Part shown: piece by piece, positions 5,621 through 52,283 of the stretch
Layout of the letters: the number at the start of each line of letters is the position of its first letter
How positions within the stretch are numbered: the stretch's first letter is position 1
Assembly: GCA_944380395.1 (NCBI GenBank)
Contig: CALWHM010000011.1
Span: 1-52,283, forward strand
From: an uncultured Clostridia bacterium
GTDB taxonomy: Bacteria > Bacillota > Clostridia > Christensenellales > UBA3700
Length of the DNA stretch: 52,283 bases
Reading direction: 5' to 3'
Translations under genes and position numbers: made by a program
Notes under the pieces: generated by a model
What the model was told of the DNA's origin: nothing
Database searches by the model: none
Seen by the model: only the letters and a program-made list of their open reading frames with translations

Positions 5621-5629
5621 GCAATCACG

Positions 5630-5750
5630 GGAGCGTGGGACGCTCCACCCCTTAACCGCCTTGCAGTAACGAAAAGGTTTTGCGACATTACATCTTTGCA
5701 ATGCTTTTGTTGGTATTCAAATATATAGCTCATAAGTTATTAACTGACAC
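5630..5750 (+). repeat. Composite dispersed repeat, copy 1
   Basis: Starts with the hairpin GGAGCGT-GGG-ACGCTCC (5630-5646), then CACCCCTTAACCGCC, then a stretch containing TTACATCTTTGCAATGCTT, and ends in the near-palindrome at 5732-5748. The same order recurs at 6060-6230 and 37100-37316, and reversed at 50431-50621. No gene is visible. Confidence 0.65.
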
Positions 5751-5837
5751 GGTGAGTCACCGCGGGCTGATTACTCCTTGAAAAAACACAAAAAAAGTTT
5801 TACTACTGTTATTCTCCGTAAAGTCCTTGTTTTTATT

Positions 5838-5995
5838 TAAATAAACGGCTTGTCAAGTGGTACTTGACATAAGTAAATACAGTGGATTGAGAAGCTTTAA
5901 GTTTATAAGTTGTTAGTCGGCGTATGAGTTGTTACTTACTTCTTCTCATATGTGTGATTTTTTCGATTTTTCAAAGTTAAGGCTGGTTATGGCTT
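5838..5995 (-). repeat. Inverted third copy of the 50.7/51.6-kb module
   Basis: The reverse complement of this stretch matches the two modules near 50.7-50.9 and 51.6-51.77 kb, with divergence. Shared pieces are a CTTAA-containing start, an AAAATC-rich stretch, AAGAAGT, GCCGACT and the terminal palindrome GTCAAGTACCACTTGAC (here 5852-5868). It is not followed by the 44-bp array found at the other two sites. Confidence 0.55.
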
Positions 5996-6230
5996 GTAAG
6001 TTATTAACTGACACGGCGAGCCGGGAGCGCGTGGCGCTCCACCCATTAACCGCATTGAAGGAGCGTGGGACGCTCCACCCCTTAACCGCATTGCAGTAAC
6101 TATAAAGGTTTTACTACTTTACATCTTCGCAATGCTTTTGTTGGTATTCAAATATATAGCTTGTAAGTTATTAACTGACAAGACTGTTAAAACAATAAGC
6201 AATAAATACTCGTGTCAAGTGGTACTTGAC
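5996..6230 (+). repeat. Composite dispersed repeat, copies 2 and 3
   Basis: Contains near-palindromes GTAAGTTATTAACTGAC at 5996-6012 and 6163-6179, GC-rich hairpins near 6020-6037 and at 6060-6076 (GGAGCGT-GGG-ACGCTCC), the TTACATCTTCGCAATGCTT segment near 6119-6137 and the GTCAAGT-n3-ACTTGAC palindrome at 6214-6230. This is the most complete example of the family in this cluster. Confidence 0.65.
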
Positions 6231-6560
6231 AAGACTGTTTTAAATTACTATTAGTTATAAAATTCTAAAATACCGGAATTTTCCACAACAAAATATGTAA
6301 AAAGTGTTAAAATTATGCCATTTTGATATAATTTATAACTATATATTATATTGCGCAAAATTTTAAATTTTTAAAATTTCACAAACTATAACCGGATATA
6401 AAAATACCTGTTGAATTTTTACGCGCAAGTCTTTTAAGACTTACACCCGCGTTTTATTTTATAATGAAATGTATAAAATAAACATGCCTTACACCTATCA
6501 GGTGTGCAATAGGTGTATAAACTATTAAAAATACCTTGTTAAATGTCACAACCAAACGCA
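6231..6560. other. AT-rich non-coding stretch
   Basis: Very AT-rich, no credible ORF. It holds one DnaA-box-like TTTTCCACA (6279-6287), a hairpin AAGTCTT-TT-AAGACTT near 6429-6444, and ACACCT-ATC-AGGTGT near 6489-6503. Short stretches resemble the AT-rich sequence around 50640-50680 and 51360-51570, so it belongs to the same repeat system. It could include origin DNA, but the gap at 8457-8937 is the stronger oriC candidate. Confidence 0.4.
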
Positions 6561-30015: not shown

Positions 30016-30016
30016 C

Positions 30017-30325
30017 CCGCAGCCTAAGCCGCTTAAACGAACGCCGCGCTTTTTCCGCCCCGCAGTCTAAGCCGCTTAAACGTGCGCAGCGCTTTTTCCG
30101 CCCCGCAGCCTAAGCCGCTTAAACGAACGCCGCGCTTTTCTTCCCCGCTCCGAAACCGTTTGAATGAACGCCGCGCTTTTTCCGCCCCGCAGTCTAAGCC
30201 GCTTAAACGTGCGCCGCGCTTTTCTTTCCGCTCCGCGCCAAAACCGCTTAAACGTACGCCGCGCTTGCTTTTTCGCACCGCAGTCTAAGCCGCTTAAACG
30301 TGCGCCGCGCTTGCTTTCCTACTTC
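30017..30325. repeat. Seven-unit tandem repeat, 41-46 bp
   Basis: Starts at the VanW stop codon. GCTTAAACG (or a close variant) recurs at 30031, 30074, 30117, 30158, 30201, 30246 and 30292, each followed by CGCCGCGCTTTT-type sequence and a C-rich stretch. ORFs that cross it on both strands only reflect the repeat. The unit partly resembles the last codons of the VanW gene (CGCCGCGACTTCTACCGCCCC). Confidence 0.75.
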
Positions 30326-30434: not shown

Positions 30435-30521
30435 GCGGATGTGGCGGAATTGGCAGACGCGTAAGATTCAGGTTCTTATGGTCGAAAGGTCGTGCAGGTT
30501 CAAGTCCTGTCATCCGCACCA
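30435..30521 (+). tRNA. tRNA-Leu (anticodon CAG)
   Basis: An 87-nt class II tRNA. Acceptor arms are GCGGATG (30435-30441) and CATCCGC (30511-30517). The anticodon stem-loop is TAAGA-TTCAGGT-TCTTA with CAG at the anticodon position, reading CUG codons. A long variable arm (TGGTCGAAAGGTCG) is followed by the T-loop TTCAAGT, and the CCA end is encoded. TrmL, encoded at 12343, modifies position 34 of leucine tRNAs. It is a common kind of integration target. Confidence 0.95.
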
Positions 30522-37040: not shown

Positions 37041-37316
37041 TTGTTACCCCGAGGGTGAGCCACCGGGAGCGCGTGGCGGCAGCGGGAGCGCGTGGCGGCA
37101 GCGAGCCGCTGCACCCTGAACCGCTTTGAAATAACGATAAAGGTTTTGCAATTTTACATCTTCGCAATGCTTTTTGCAGTGCTCAAATATATGGCATGTA
37201 AGTTATTAACTGACAAGTTTGTTAAAGAGTGAGGCAAAAGTACTCGTGTAAGTTATTAACTGACACGGCTATTAAAACAATAAGCAATAACTACCCATGT
37301 CAAGTGGTACTTGAGC
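37041..37316 (+). repeat. Composite dispersed repeat at 37.1 kb
   Basis: Same components and order as at 5.6-6.2 kb: GC-rich hairpin units GGGAGCGCGTGGCGGCAGC (twice), the TTACATCTTCGCAATGCTT segment (37155-37173), near-palindromes at 37198-37214 and 37248-37264, and the GTCAAGTGGTACTTGA palindrome (37299-37315, last base changed). The hairpin GGAGCGT-GGG-ACGCTCC recurs at 37347-37363 with TTAACCGC. Confidence 0.65.
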
Positions 37317-37403
37317 AGCGAGCGGCTCCACCCATTAACCGCCTTGGGAGCGTGGGACGCTCCACCCCTTAACCGCATTGAAGTATCGATAAAGGTTGTG
37401 CGA

Positions 37404-37522
37404 CTTTACATCTTCGCAATGCGGTTGGTCGTGCTAACGGAAGCAGTTTGCGGCTTTACATCTTCGCAATGCGGTTGGTTGTGCTAACGGAAGCAGTTTG
37501 CGGCTTTACATCTTCGCAATGC
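37404..37522 (+). repeat. 50-bp tandem repeat, 2.4 units
   Basis: CTTTACATCTTCGCAATGC begins at 37404, 37454 and 37504, an exact 50-bp period; the intervening GGTTGGTNGTGCTAACGG and AAGCAGTTTGCGG are nearly identical. It amplifies one segment of the composite repeat. Between here and 37812 no gene is seen. Confidence 0.75.
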
Positions 37523-37812
37523 TTGTGAGTGACGGAGATGTACCGTTAGTTAAAAATTCCACTATTATGGAATTTTACAAATGCCCAAAATCGCCGAGAA
37601 ATATTCCAAGACGGTATAAGGTCAAAAGATTTTGACAAAGAGAGCAAGTTTTATCGCAAGAAAGATATGTGCAGCGCACATATTTTTCATTTTGCCGCTT
37701 TGCAAGTATTCGTGTAAAAGCGGCAGTATCCGCAAAAGCGGACAAAGTATAACAAATAATCTGCGCAAGCGTCCGCAATTGCGGACAGAACAAGATTTAT
37801 AAGGAGGGAATT

Positions 37813-48462: not shown

Positions 48463-49137
48463 ATGTCAACTGTTTTGGTGGTGGAGGACGACTATTCCAC
48501 CCGTCTTCTCACGGTGGCGAACCTGCGCCGCGACTTTGAGGTGGTGTCCGCGGAGAACGGCAGCGCCGCGCTGGACGTCATCTATTCAAGGCATGTGGAC
48601 GTTATAGTTTCGGATATTATGATGCCCGAAATGGACGGCTATCAATTGGCGCGCGAGGTGCGCGAAAGCGGCAATAACGTGCCGTTCATCTTTCTCACCG
48701 CAAAGGCGTCGCCCGGCGACAAGGCGCAGGGCTTTGAGCTGGGCATAGACGATTATATGGTCAAGCCCGTGGACTATACGGAGCTTATCTGGCGTATCCG
48801 CGCCATACTCCGCCGCGCGCAGATAGCCGACTCGCGCGCCATAACCGCGGGCGGCTTGAAGGTGGACTCCGCGGCGTACACCGTCACTTACAACGGCAGG
48901 AATATAGAGCTTACGCGCAAGGAGTTCGACCTTTTATTCAAACTTTTGTCCTATCCCAATATGATATTCACGAAAAATCAGCTTTTGGACGAGATATGGG
49001 GCGCGGACAGCGCCAGCGGGGATGACACCGTCAAAGTGCATATCTCCCGCCTCAGGAATAAGATTTCGGAGGTGGAGGAAGTGGACATCATAGCCGTTAA
49101 GGGCATAGGCTATAAGGCTGTGATAAAGGAGAAATGA
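48463..49137 (+). CDS. OmpR-family response regulator
   Basis: 224 residues. The receiver domain has the acidic pair EDD at 8-10, phospho-acceptor Asp51 in VIVSDIMMPEMDGY, and Lys in YMVKPVDY. A winged-helix DNA-binding domain follows with IELTRKEFDLLFKLLSYPNMIFTKNQLLDEIWG, the recognition helix region DDTVKVHISRLRNKI and the wing IAVKGIGYK. GGAGG precedes the ATG. It is translated with the following sensor kinase (stop and start overlap or lie 2 nt apart). The target genes are not evident. The operator-like repeats before its own promoter suggest autoregulation. Confidence 0.94.
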   Translation: MSTVLVVEDDYSTRLLTVANLRRDFEVVSAENGSAALDVIYSRHVDVIVSDIMMPEMDGYQLAREVRESGNNVPFIFLTAKASPGDKAQGFELGIDDYMVKPVDYTELIWRIRAILRRAQIADSRAITAGGLKVDSAAYTVTYNGRNIELTRKEFDLLFKLLSYPNMIFTKNQLLDEIWGADSASGDDTVKVHISRLRNKISEVEEVDIIAVKGIGYKAVIKEK

Positions 49138-49139
49138 GT

Positions 49140-50222
49140 ATGTGCAAGGACAATAAGCAGACGGTCAAGCCGAAAAAAATCAAAAAGAAAAAAGAAGAAC
49201 TGCCGCCTCTCAGGAAAAATCTCTCCGCGATGCTCACCTTGCAGACGTTCTTTGTCCTGCTTGTGGTGGTCGCAATAGCTTTGGCAATGGCTATGATGTA
49301 CCGCACGGTTTTGACTGCCAACCATCTCTACGGGATTTTGAGTATGATGGTGCCCATAGTTTTGCTCGTGAGCCTGATAAACGCGACTTTTTCCCGCATT
49401 ATGTACAAATATCTGAACGATCTTTCAAGCGCTATGACCAAGGTGGCGGACGGCGATTTCTCCGTGCGGCTGGACGCGGAGAAAAAACAGCCTTTCCGCG
49501 AAGTCTACCGCGACTTTAACACGATGGCGGAAGAGCTGGGCGGCGTGGAAATGCTGAAAAACGACTTTATCAACGTATACTCGCACGAGCTGCGCACCCC
49601 CGTCACCGCAATAAACGGCTTTGCGGAAATGCTGCTCAAAAACGACGGCTCCGTCAGCAATGAGGAGGCGCGCTCTTATTTGGAGATAATCGCTTCCGAA
49701 TCACGCCGCCTTGCCGATCTCATCGGCAACAGCCTGCTTATGAGCAAGCTTGATTCGCAGAAGATAATCCCCGATAAAAAGACTTACTCCCTTGACGAAC
49801 AGCTGCGCCGCTGCAGTATCCTGCTTTCCTCGCAGTGGCAGGAGAAAGAGCTGGATATGACTATGGACCTTGAAGAAGCTTCCTACACGGGCGACCCCGA
49901 CCTTATGCAGCATTTATGGCTGAACCTTATGACCAACGCCATAAAATACACGCCTAAAAACGGCAGCGTAACCGTCACCCTGAAAAAAGACGCGAACTTT
50001 CTTGTCGTCACCGTCGCCGATACCGGCAAGGGCATAGCCCCCGAAGAGCGTGAACGCATTTTCGACCGCTATTACCAAACGGATAAATCGCACACCAACC
50101 GCGGTCTGGGCTTGGGACTTTCCATCTGCAAGCGCATAGTGCAGCTCTGCAACGGAAGCATTTCCGTGGAAAGCAAGCCGGGGGAAGGCTCCGCCTTTAT
50201 CGTAAGACTCCCTATGCAGTAA
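49140..50222 (+). CDS. HAMP-domain sensor histidine kinase
   Basis: 360 residues. Two N-terminal membrane helices (TLQTFFVLLVVVAIALAMAMMY and GILSMMVPIVLLVSLINATF) are separated by only about a dozen residues. Almost no extracytoplasmic domain exists, so it is an intramembrane-sensing kinase. HAMP (LSSAMTKVADGDFSVRLDAE) is followed by the H-box INVYSHELRTPVTAINGFAEML, N-box LWLNLMTNAIKYTP, G1 VADTGKGIAPEERERIFDRYYQ and G2 HTNRGLGLGLSICKRIV. ATG 49140 has AGGAG at 8 nt; ATG 49134, which overlaps the regulator's stop as ATGA, has too short a spacing. The last 36 bp are duplicated just after the stop. Confidence 0.93.
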   Translation: MCKDNKQTVKPKKIKKKKEELPPLRKNLSAMLTLQTFFVLLVVVAIALAMAMMYRTVLTANHLYGILSMMVPIVLLVSLINATFSRIMYKYLNDLSSAMTKVADGDFSVRLDAEKKQPFREVYRDFNTMAEELGGVEMLKNDFINVYSHELRTPVTAINGFAEMLLKNDGSVSNEEARSYLEIIASESRRLADLIGNSLLMSKLDSQKIIPDKKTYSLDEQLRRCSILLSSQWQEKELDMTMDLEEASYTGDPDLMQHLWLNLMTNAIKYTPKNGSVTVTLKKDANFLVVTVADTGKGIAPEERERIFDRYYQTDKSHTNRGLGLGLSICKRIVQLCNGSISVESKPGEGSAFIVRLPMQ

Positions 50223-50372: not shown

Positions 50373-50430
50373 CCAAGCACAGTCTTTACCGTATGGTGCC
50401 CAAGCTTCGCAATTCATTGTATATGCTCAT

Positions 50431-50621
50431 GTCAAGTACCACTTGACAAGGGTATATATTGCTAATTGTTTTAATAGTCGTGTCAGTTAATAACTTACAA
50501 GCTATATATTTGAGCACTACTAAAAGCATTGCGAAGATGTACAGTCGCAAAACCTTTATCGATACTTCAATGCGGTTAATGGGTGGAGCGCCACGCGATC
50601 CCTTGTCAGTTAATAACTTAC
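50431..50621 (-). repeat. Composite dispersed repeat, inverted copy
   Basis: Reverse orientation of the elements at 6.1 and 37.2 kb: palindrome GTCAAGTACCACTTGAC (50431-50447), near-palindrome GTCAGTTAATAACTTAC (50482-50498), AAGCATTGCGAAGATGTA, GGTTAATGGGTGGAGCG, and a second near-palindrome at 50605-50621. Confidence 0.65.
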
Positions 50622-50692
50622 AAGTCGTGTTTTATCGGGTGAAATTCCGGTATTCTGGAATTTTATAACTATAAGTAATTAAAAGTAAGCTT

Positions 50693-50979
50693 GTCAAGTA
50701 CCACTTGACACGGGTATTTTAGCTTGGAATTTTAAAAATTTAAAACCAAAACTAACCTTAACCTCGGAAAATCAAAATCACCAACATATAAGAAGAAGTG
50801 CGCAACGACATATATGCCGACTGATAACTTCCAAGAGTTAAGATTCGCAAGCCATTGTATATACTCATGTCAAGTACCACTTGACAAGGGTAGTTATTGT
50901 TTATTTGTTTAATGAGAGGCGAAAATTAGCCTATACCAAAAATCTTGGTATTGACATATAAGCGCAGTTTATAATAGGA
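50693..50979 (+). repeat. Duplicated module, copy 1 (leader of the first 44-bp array)
   Basis: Begins with the palindrome at 50693-50709. It continues through AT-rich sequence, an ACCAACATATAAGAAGAAG segment, ATGCCGACTGATAAC, a second palindrome (50869-50885) and a strongly conserved leader from 50888 (TAGTTATTGTTTATTTGTTT...CAAAAATCTTGGTATTGACA). It ends in TATAAT beside the first array unit. The same module recurs at 51577-51859. Its TTGACA and TATAAT are both perfect but only 13 nt apart, too close for a normal sigma-A promoter. Confidence 0.7.
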
Positions 50980-51264
50980 TGTCCACTTTTGTGGACACCT
51001 GCACGTATGTCTTTATTATGTTTTGTCCACTTTTGTGGACACTTACGCACACTCGTCTGTTATGCGTTGTCCACTTTTGTGGACACTTGCGCACGCTCGT
51101 CTGTTATGCGTTGTCCACTTTAGTGGACACTGGCGCACGCTCGTCTGTTATGTGTTGTCCACTTTTGTGGACACTGGCGCACGCTCGTCTGTTATGTGTT
51201 GTCCACTTTTGTGGACACTAGCGCACGCTCGCCTGTTATGCGTTGTCCACTTTTGTGGACACCG
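50980..51264 (+). repeat. First 44-bp palindromic array, 7 units
   Basis: GTCCAC-TTT(T/A)-GTGGAC starts at 50981, 51025, 51069, 51113, 51157, 51201 and 51245, exactly 44 bp apart each time. Between palindromes lies a conserved ACTTGCGCACGCTCGTCTGT-like stretch. Because the intervening sequence is also conserved this is a tandem repeat, not a CRISPR array. Each palindrome can form a 6-bp hairpin with a 4-nt loop. ORFs through it merely reflect the repeat. Confidence 0.9.
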
Positions 51265-51576
51265 CTGCTTTTGCTAAAATATGTGCAAGTAGTGGGGTGA
51301 AAAATATGTGCACCGCAAATATTTTTCTATGCGAGCGGGGCGGGCGCGCCAGCTTGTTTTGAGAAAAATTCCGGTATTATGGAATTTTATAACTAAAAGT
51401 AATTGAGATGTTGTGAAACCGTCCGTTGCTATACAATTTAAAATTCTGTTGCAAGCAACGCATTTGTAAAACTTATAGTTATAAAATTTTAAATATTTAA
51501 AATTTTGTGCGGTCGCATAACAAACGGTTATTAAATATGCCGTTTTGGTATAATTTCTGCAAAGAAAAATAGTCGT
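51265..51576. other. Spacer between the two repeat modules
   Basis: No credible gene. It contains the AT-rich ATTCCGGTATTATGGAATTT and TTATAACTAAAAGTAATT segments also seen near 50645-50680 and, diverged, near 6250-6290, plus an orphan TATAAT near 51549. The minus-strand ORF across 51274-51588 has no recognisable domain. Confidence 0.4.
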
Positions 51577-51859
51577 GTCAAGTACCACTTGACAAGGGTA
51601 TTTCAGCCTAGAATTTTAAAACTGAAATCAATCTTAATCGCGGAAAATCAAAAATCACCAACATATAAGAAAGAAGTGCGCAACAACATATAATGCCGAC
51701 TGATAACGTCCACGCTTTAAGTTTCGCAATCCATTATAAAGTACTCATGTCAAGTACTACTTGACACGGGTAGTTATTGTTTATTTGTTTAATGAGAGGC
51801 GAAAATTAGCCTATACCAAAAATCTTGGTATTGACATATAAGCGCAGTTTATAATATGC
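51577..51859 (+). repeat. Duplicated module, copy 2 (leader of the second 44-bp array)
   Basis: Same order as 50693-50979: palindromes at 51577-51593 and 51749-51765 (the latter with GTCAAGTACTACTTGAC), the ATGCCGACTGATAAC segment, and the leader from about 51768, nearly identical to copy 1 up to the TATAAT beside the array. Confidence 0.7.
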
Positions 51860-51966
51860 TGTCCACTTTAGTGGACACTGTCGCACGCTCGTTTGTTATG
51901 TGTTGTCCACTTTAGTGGACACTGGCGCACGCTCGCCTGTTATGCGTTGTCCACTTTTGTGGACAC
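51860..51966 (+). repeat. Second 44-bp palindromic array, 3 units
   Basis: GTCCAC-TTT(A/T)-GTGGAC at 51861, 51905 and 51949 with the same exact 44-bp period and nearly the same unit sequence as the first array. A decayed GTGACATATTTTATGGACAC follows. From about 51990 to 52149 no further feature is seen. Confidence 0.88.
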
Positions 51967-52149
51967 TGTGACATATTTTATGGACACTAATTTGAATGAA
52001 AAATAGTTAAAATGAGATGGTTTTTAATATAAAAAGCAGTGCGTAACTTAAAATACAATTCTATCTGGTGCAATGTCAATCTAAAAATACAGGCATAATC
52101 TCGTGTTTAGAAAAATTATAATATTCTACAAAAATTCTCAGTTGCTGTA

Positions 52150-52178
52150 TTGACATGCTTGAAATTCAATGCTATAAT
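52150..52178 (+). promoter_or_regulatory. Promoter of the AAA ATPase gene
   Basis: Perfect consensus: TTGACA (52150-52155), 17-nt spacer, TATAAT (52173-52178), about 30 nt before the ATG at 52210. Confidence 0.85.
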
Positions 52179-52209
52179 ATAAAGAAATAATAGTGTTGGA
52201 GTTTCGAAT

Positions 52210-52283
52210 ATGGAAATTAAACGAGATTTTTATCTTAATAAATTAATTCAACACAAGAAAAACGGATTGGTAAAAATTGTTAC
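52210..52283 (+). CDS. AAA ATPase, DUF4143 type (5' end only)
   Basis: Only the first 24 codons are in the window: MEIKRDFYLNKLIQHKKNGLV then KIVT. This matches the start of the ATP-binding proteins with a C-terminal DUF4143 nuclease-like domain, which normally continue with a Walker A of the GIRRCGKS type just past the window edge. GGAG lies 8 nt before the ATG. Such genes are common, often multicopy and of uncertain function. Here the gene lies directly downstream of the palindromic arrays and has a consensus promoter. Confidence 0.65.
   Translation, partial: MEIKRDFYLNKLIQHKKNGLVKIV

Follow-up and report, generated by a model that had tools for sequence, protein, structure and literature searches.

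Tandem arrays of an 18-bp palindrome in an uncultured Clostridia bacterium: a probable REP/BOX-like intergenic repeat

Two arrays within an intergenic repeat mosaic

The window (the whole stretch of DNA analysed, 52,283 nucleotides) is the entire contig C11 of a draft genome, G000, which comprises 66 contigs and 1.78 Mb and is 88% complete; G001 to G006 denote six other genomes of its genus. Near the end of the window, a sensor histidine kinase gene is followed by about 1.6 kb of intergenic repeats and then by about 0.3 kb of other sequence. Ten perfect GTCCACTTT(T/A)GTGGAC palindromes were found in the window, in two arrays embedded in a larger repeat mosaic at about 50400-51967. The features of this region are as follows.

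49134..50222, + strand, the same strand as the arrays: upstream gene, a sensor histidine kinase with HAMP, HisKA and HATPase_c domains
50430..50448, - strand: palindrome of a second family, TGTCAAGTGGTACTTGACA
50692..50710, - strand: second-family site
50868..50886, - strand: second-family site 5' of the head module of array 1
50934..50950, + strand: head-module hairpin TACCAAAAATCTTGGTA, 5' of array 1
50980..51261, + strand: array 1, seven GTCCACTTTWGTGGAC palindromes (18-bp block, 7-bp stem, loop TTTT or TTTA) with a 44-bp period and 28-bp spacers; palindrome starts at 50981, 51025, 51069, 51113, 51157, 51201 and 51245
51261..51330, + strand: 3' tail module of array 1, ACCGCTGCTTTTGC... and then a degenerate ATATGTGCA..ATAT inverted repeat
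51565..51967, + strand: second copy of the composite of head and array, about 86% identical to 50681-51087
51576..51594, - strand: second-family site
51748..51766, matching both strands: second-family site 5' of the head module of array 2
51814..51830, + strand: head-module hairpin as before array 1, 5' of array 2
51860..51965, + strand: array 2, three palindromes with a 44-bp period; palindrome starts at 51861, 51905 and 51949

The initial annotation had described the arrays as seven and three exact 44-bp units, each with a 16-bp palindrome. The unit starts and the strict period were confirmed, all eight within-array intervals being 44 bp, and the 16-bp palindrome is perfect at all ten sites. 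The units as wholes, however, are only about 90% alike (90% matches in TRF), and exactness is limited to the palindrome. The conserved block is 18 bp long rather than 16, T-GTCCAC-TTTW-GTGGAC-A, with a 7-bp stem. At up to 3 mismatches the window gave 22 strand-wise matches to the palindrome; the ten sites account for 20. The expectation from 100 shuffles of the window was 0.41 (largest shuffle, 3).

Both arrays are preceded by the same head module, with a TGTCAAG..CTTGACA palindrome and a TACCAA..TTGGTA hairpin. A similar head lies 5' to a palindrome in G002 (locus L050), and tails related to that of array 1 were found behind several other arrays. TTGACA and TATAAT sequences 13 bp apart in the head module, judged by eye, were not accepted as a promoter. 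The only Rfam family above gathering score in the window was a tRNA, and the arrays had no match. Elsewhere in the window, further stretches of the intergenic mosaic lie at 5626-6281 and 37101-37787 and include copies of the 50427-50608 module; a separate GC-rich tandem array with 43-bp and 84-bp periods (TRF) occupies 30016-30312, near a tRNA-Leu at 30435.

A junction interrupts array 2 behind its third palindrome, and a further two units, with the usual 3' tail, were located near the start of another contig (L016, units at 1290 and 1334, spanning 1290-1349). The interruption may be an island or rearrangement within the array, or an assembly join. The first 1.3 kb of L016 (1-1300), abutting the apparent rest of array 2, carries HSDR_N and ResIII frames, and the sequence ACTG is present at both junctions, on the window 51967-52283 side and on the L016 side.

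Copies of the palindrome in the genome and in its genus

The exact 16-mer occurs 114 times in the G000 draft, 69 and 45 times by strand, and the reversed control 0 times. The stretches fetched for analysis contain all 114 copies. When neighbouring arrays within one gap are counted as one place, these copies lie at 23 places on 19 contigs, the places L015 and L023 holding a single copy each; at contig ends a single array may in some cases be counted as two places. The draft is incomplete and at least five arrays reach within 40 bp of a contig end, which leaves both array lengths and copy numbers uncertain; the repeats are probably also a cause of breaks in the assembly. The G000 counts include two chance single sites (window 9647, and L014 3409, inside ruvC), and 11 of 228 candidate units were left out of the array statistics. 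Virtually all neighbour pairs less than 150 bp apart are arranged head to tail, 112 of 113 in G000 and 38 of 39 in G002.

The palindrome is an extragenic sequence in high copy number. The copies lie between the longer ORFs and outside every Pfam-supported ORF tested, except that the array on L016 runs a few bases into the end of a truncated restriction gene; short mechanical ORFs built of repeat sequence overlap some arrays. Neighbours that could be named by Pfam include SpoIVA, GAPDH, HIT, HprK and UDG, and one further neighbour we take to be RuvC, from its sequence and the ruvC-ruvA order. On contig C36 (L019) the period is 34-35 bp and variants such as GTCCGGTTTTGCGGAC are found. Two arrays of this period, at L019 2643-3003 and 10087-10655, carry GTCCGG..CGGAC variants, and the contig has a P22-type portal gene, so the repeats may be present in a prophage as well.

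Among 60 genomes, ranging from G000 itself to members of its order, the exact 16-mer was found in three, all within the genus: G000 (114 copies), G002 (51) and G003 (11). Thus three of the seven genus genomes, G000 included, have exact copies. When up to 3 mismatches were allowed and both strands counted, G005 gave 19 matches and G001, G004 and G006 gave 2, 5 and 1, respectively. G002 has one array of 35 palindromes, spaced 63-66 bp apart except for intervals of 119 and 117 and with several spacer groups, as well as scattered single or paired copies. In G003 the palindromes occur at six loci as inverted pairs with a spacing of 58 bp, and one of these loci has an additional unit 64 bp further on; 6 of 7 neighbour pairs are inverted there, as against 1 of 113 in G000 and 1 of 39 in G002.

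Exact copies are absent from G005, where 16 related units form an array; their spacing is 64-75 bp, except for two gaps near 198 bp. All stem positions pair in four of the 16 (three read TGTCCGCTTTTGCGGACA) and, with a G.T, in two more, and the other ten each contain one or more mismatched pairs. Scoring of the fifth stem pair (numbered from 0) in 20 G005 units gave G.T in 13 cases, G-C in 4 and A.C in 3. Co-varying palindromes in relatives, which the initial annotation had put forward as potential support for a function, are therefore weakly supported: the fifth pair has changed, but to G-C in only four of 20 units, and the mismatches in ten of the 16 array units indicate that compensation is partial and that the palindromes look partly decayed.

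No such array was found outside the genus in the family genomes, species genomes, viral contigs, plasmids and phages searched. A search for the array pattern in 84,980 species genomes (contigs of at least 3 kb, a set from which records near G000 may be left out) returned two contigs, assigned to G002 and G003 by length, and a relaxed pattern, which misses the G005 array, was found in 3 of 47 family genomes, G000 included, all in the genus. The pattern was absent from the viral contigs searched and window 50860-51970 matched no plasmid or phage; a plasmid or phage origin was accordingly rejected.

Gaps between orthologous genes were also compared; these comparisons concern gap lengths rather than exact empty sites or target-site duplications. 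The RuvC proteins of G001-G006 are 84-95% identical to that of G000. The ruvC-ruvA gap is 131 bp in G004, 940 bp in G005 and 1026 bp in G003, all palindrome-free, and 1434 bp in G002, where it contains two GTCCAC palindromes (ruvA was called by Pfam in G003, G004 and G005 and by its first 21 residues in G002). G000 has an array of nine behind ruvC, and its next gene there encodes a leucine-rich-repeat protein. The kinase and a glycosyltransferase gene are 434 bp apart in G002 with no palindrome between them; in G000 this kinase precedes the window arrays and the matching glycosyltransferase is on contig C15, behind the apparent continuation of array 2. The genus seems to have several repeat systems. 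Downstream of ruvC in G005 and G003 (L070 and L071), about 1 kb of other repeat-like sequence, e.g. CCCTCTCGTCGC.., was seen by eye in the gap.

Conservation of palindrome, spacer and period

To examine the edges of the conserved block, each array was represented by a single unit. In G002, with 20 first and 20 last units, both end letters (T and A) reach 2.00 bits, neither having served to select the sites, and the positions just outside the 18-bp block carry 0.54 and 0.77 bits. In G000 (33 first and 32 last units, the two chance singles included), these letters are looser, at 1.48-1.60 bits for the first and 1.15-1.18 bits for the last. Sharp block edges are seen in these two genomes; in G003 conservation extends into the flanks, since all six loci share one composite element. 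Between G000 arrays, palindromes are 93% alike and spacers 63% (shuffled spacers, 51%); within arrays, the values are 94% and 77%. It should be noted that choosing units by their palindrome raises the palindrome figures. For G002 spacers, identity is 63% within arrays and 51% between them (67 and 17 comparisons). Together with the sharp edges, these identities indicate that the palindrome is the lasting part of the repeat and that spacer and period are local.

The initial annotation had read the strict period as a sign of phased binding by a dimeric protein along one DNA face. In G000, 44 bp is the commonest spacing, but others of 31-35, 39-46 and 61-70 bp occur; the G002 array has spacings of 63-66 bp and the G005 array of 64-75 bp. 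Phased binding would need the opposite of a lasting palindrome with a local period, and is therefore disfavoured. Reading the palindrome as a hairpin or a symmetric recognition site is fair, given its strongly conserved recurrence in three species. The search of the genome and its relatives that had been proposed thus shows an 18-bp palindrome that persists, whereas the period differs between arrays and species. Other periods combined with decaying palindromes had been named as the mark of simple slippage; other periods do occur elsewhere, but decay is absent in G000, G002 and G003 and partial in G005.

The second family, TGTCAAG..CTTGACA, follows a similar pattern. At up to 1 mismatch, TGTCAAGTNNTACTTGACA has 120 forward and 124 reverse sites in G000 and, in G002, 102 and 107, the two strand counts being largely duplicates, and there are 0 copies in the other five genus genomes. 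In the stretches that were fetched, G000 has one array, of eleven units at exactly 51 bp (L098 864-1390), its other copies being irregularly spaced, and G002 has 17 arrays of at least three, mostly at 50-51 bp (for example, a 50-bp array at L099 272-740), with a spacer that differs from that of G000. This parallel behaviour of two unrelated palindromes is the strongest indication that what matters is the palindrome and not the period.

Known repeat systems and the origin of the arrays

According to the initial annotation, no known array type fits these units well. This was too strong, since evenly spaced tandem REP arrays, along with REPINs, have been described in Pseudomonas fluorescens SBW25 (PMC3116915); the misfit to CRISPR and iteron arrays holds. 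Unlike CRISPR spacers, those of G000 repeat one another (the 77% mean identity given above). The spacers of the G002 array fall into few recurring groups with identities of 0.54-0.70 between groups and about 0.4 for one long type. Shuffled G000 spacers give about 0.51, and a CRISPR- or cassette-like nature of this array was rejected, diverged tandem units explaining it at least as well.

The best behavioural fit is to REP-type repeats. Like REP, BIME and REPIN sequences, the palindromes are short and extragenic, exceed 100 copies and form mosaics with other repeats; the evenly spaced tandem arrays recall those reported for SBW25 (PMC3116915), and the inverted doublets typical of REPINs are seen at the six G003 loci, although the main form in G000 and G002 is head to tail. 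REPs have been split into GTAG and CGTC super-families (PMC3733652). The GTAG type differs from the present repeat, which has no GTAG tag by its stem and no RAYT found in G000: the 5' flank (-4 to -1) carries 0.05-0.64 bits in G000 and 0.05-0.54 bits in G002, the 3' flank at most 1.03 bits (a C), and the flanks conserved in G003 are not GTAG. The CGTC type, which includes the neisserial dRS3, is closer in its dimensions, with a stem of 8-9 and a loop of 4-5 as against 7 and 4 here. In the part of PMC3733652 available, its tag is often TGTC and no dedicated transposase is known for it. However, the TGTC of the present palindrome belongs to the stem, where it pairs with GACA, whereas the CGTC or TGTC tag is unpaired, and head-to-tail pairs, dominant here, are described as negligible there; Firmicutes are not mentioned in that part of the text. 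We use the term REP-like rather than REP because of the results for the tag and the transposase.

In architecture the arrays also resemble the modular pneumococcal BOX elements, boxA-boxB(n)-boxC, whose tandem part varies in length (PMC3049150). Both are intergenic composites of head, tandem unit and tail with variable copy number, and in our case common head and tail modules surround several arrays. The present palindrome differs in that it is not restricted to the composite and is also combined with other heads and spacers. For BOX elements, compared here by published architecture, terminal inverted repeats (TIR) and target duplications have been reported. Four exact palindrome strings had no match in the literature searched, and among the matches listed no title concerned such repeats in Christensenellaceae or Firmicutes.

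Candidate mobilising enzymes were sought by protein family. No Y1 transposase (RAYT, PF01797) was found in G000, which at 88% completeness is no proof of absence; G002 has one, with an internal stop, and G003 four rows. The five PF01797 loci fetched from G002 and G003 (up to about 1.5 kb on each side) contain no palindrome, and RAYT/IS200 was rejected as the driver, being absent from G000 and unlinked to the palindromes at these loci. Transposases of the rve family were likewise rejected: G000 and G006 have none, and they are present in the five other genus genomes, with and without repeats. RVT_1 reverse transcriptases number 0 in G000, G002 and G003, and occur only in G005 and G006, one match each, which argues against a retro-element. 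At a contig end (L029 4588-4842), about 3.8 kb from an array, there is an N-terminal piece of an HTH_38-domain protein, which we presume to be IS30-like.

We consider it probable that the arrays are local clusters of a REP/BOX-like intergenic hairpin repeat, probably selfish, that has been amplified locally by slippage or unequal recombination. The lasting unit is the 18-bp palindrome TGTCCACTTTWGTGGACA, which is present at many intergenic sites along with other modules, including the TGTCAAG..CTTGACA palindrome and the TACCAA..TTGGTA hairpin. A recognising factor may have dispersed the palindrome, with neighbouring modules, into intergenic gaps. At many sites the palindrome and its local neighbour sequence have been multiplied head to tail, presumably by slippage or unequal recombination, giving a period that is uniform within an array and different between arrays and species. 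The palindrome would survive while the spacer turns over because it is recognised, whether in double-stranded form or folded into a hairpin. Its patchy occurrence in a single genus suggests that it is selfish and not a regulatory site of the host. Against the selfish reading, no mobilising enzyme was found in G000, spacers keep some similarity between arrays (63%, compared with 51% for shuffled spacers), and a host protein with many sites would likewise conserve the palindrome. More speculatively, and with a small chance of being right, a single sequence-specific factor might recognise palindromes ending in TGTC...GACA, of at least two families, and drive both their dispersal and their head-to-tail growth; the recognition end would be kept and the passenger spacer exchanged between species, in an amplification independent of RAYT.

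The alternative that the palindromes are operator-like sites for a dimeric host DNA-binding protein (a regulator, a nucleoid protein or an anchoring protein), with arrays raising local occupancy, is unlikely. A perfect 18-bp dyad with sharp edges, conserved across unrelated flanks in G002 and G000 and present in tandem at many places, is in its favour. Yet there are only the 2, 5 and 1 matches in G001, G004 and G006, in a genus whose RuvC proteins are as similar as those above, spacing is not conserved, and no common function was seen among the neighbouring genes, compared by eye.

We regard as improbable the proposal that the arrays form strings of RNA hairpins in transcript 3' regions that influence mRNA stability or termination. 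As RNA, the window array folds far better than shuffles (z -9.5 on the + strand), but the minus strand does nearly as well (z -8.5), so that folding does not choose a strand. Array and upstream gene lie on the same strand at 9 of 12 places with a Pfam-supported upstream gene (one-sided binomial, 0.073), and at 14 of 18 when six places with unsupported ORFs are added (0.015); the remaining five of the 23 places (L016, L020, L021, L024 and L026) were left out because they adjoin a contig edge or a cut-off gene, or lack a convincing ORF upstream. Upstream genes were chosen manually from a list of mechanically called ORFs, with short ones passed over; the ruvC place was counted among the 12 by sequence identity, and at L017, where the list gave shadow ORFs, the true neighbour is the HprK gene. 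Array-level one-sided stem changes favour G.T over A.C by 22 to 8, spacer changes being even (64 to 73), but the excess falls to 14 to 7 without the outer pair. Distinct stems pair slightly better than shuffled ones (0.901 vs 0.878, a value reached by 9 of 2000 shuffles). In the second family a ratio of 55 to 20 becomes 11 to 15 without two subfamily-defining pairs. Column-level Fisher tests (P 0.06 and 1.0) and the pair-5 association (P 0.16) were not significant.

Plain replication slippage, with no recognition of the palindrome, is very unlikely to be the whole explanation. A period uniform within arrays and different between them, and the partly decayed palindromes of G005, are in its favour, and as the means of array growth slippage is likely; as the whole story it is refuted by the recurrence of the same 18-bp palindrome, not the spacer, amid unrelated flanks in three species.

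The suggestion of a DnaA titration, partition or plasmid-iteron site is scarcely credible. DnaA boxes have the consensus TTATCCACA, or TTWTNCACA as a nonamer. The resembling sequence TTGTCCACT, which the initial annotation had placed in every unit, is present in 8 of 10, being replaced at 50981 (ATGTCCACT) and 51861 (CTGTCCACT); it misses the consensus at positions 3 and 9 throughout and is the nearest form to the nonamer, which occurs in 0 of 10 units, and variant units reading TGTCCGGTTTTG.. are further still from a DnaA box. The 114 copies at 23 places on 19 contigs do not form one cluster beside rep or par genes, and the window arrays had no plasmid or phage match.

These observations caution against inferring much about function from a strict period in a single genome. 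Among REP systems, the best described rely on a Y1 transposase and inverted doublets. In this genus, two unrelated palindromes form head-to-tail arrays with species-specific spacers, with no transposase found in the genome richest in copies, and they offer material for comparing what such REP-like palindromes require for their spread.
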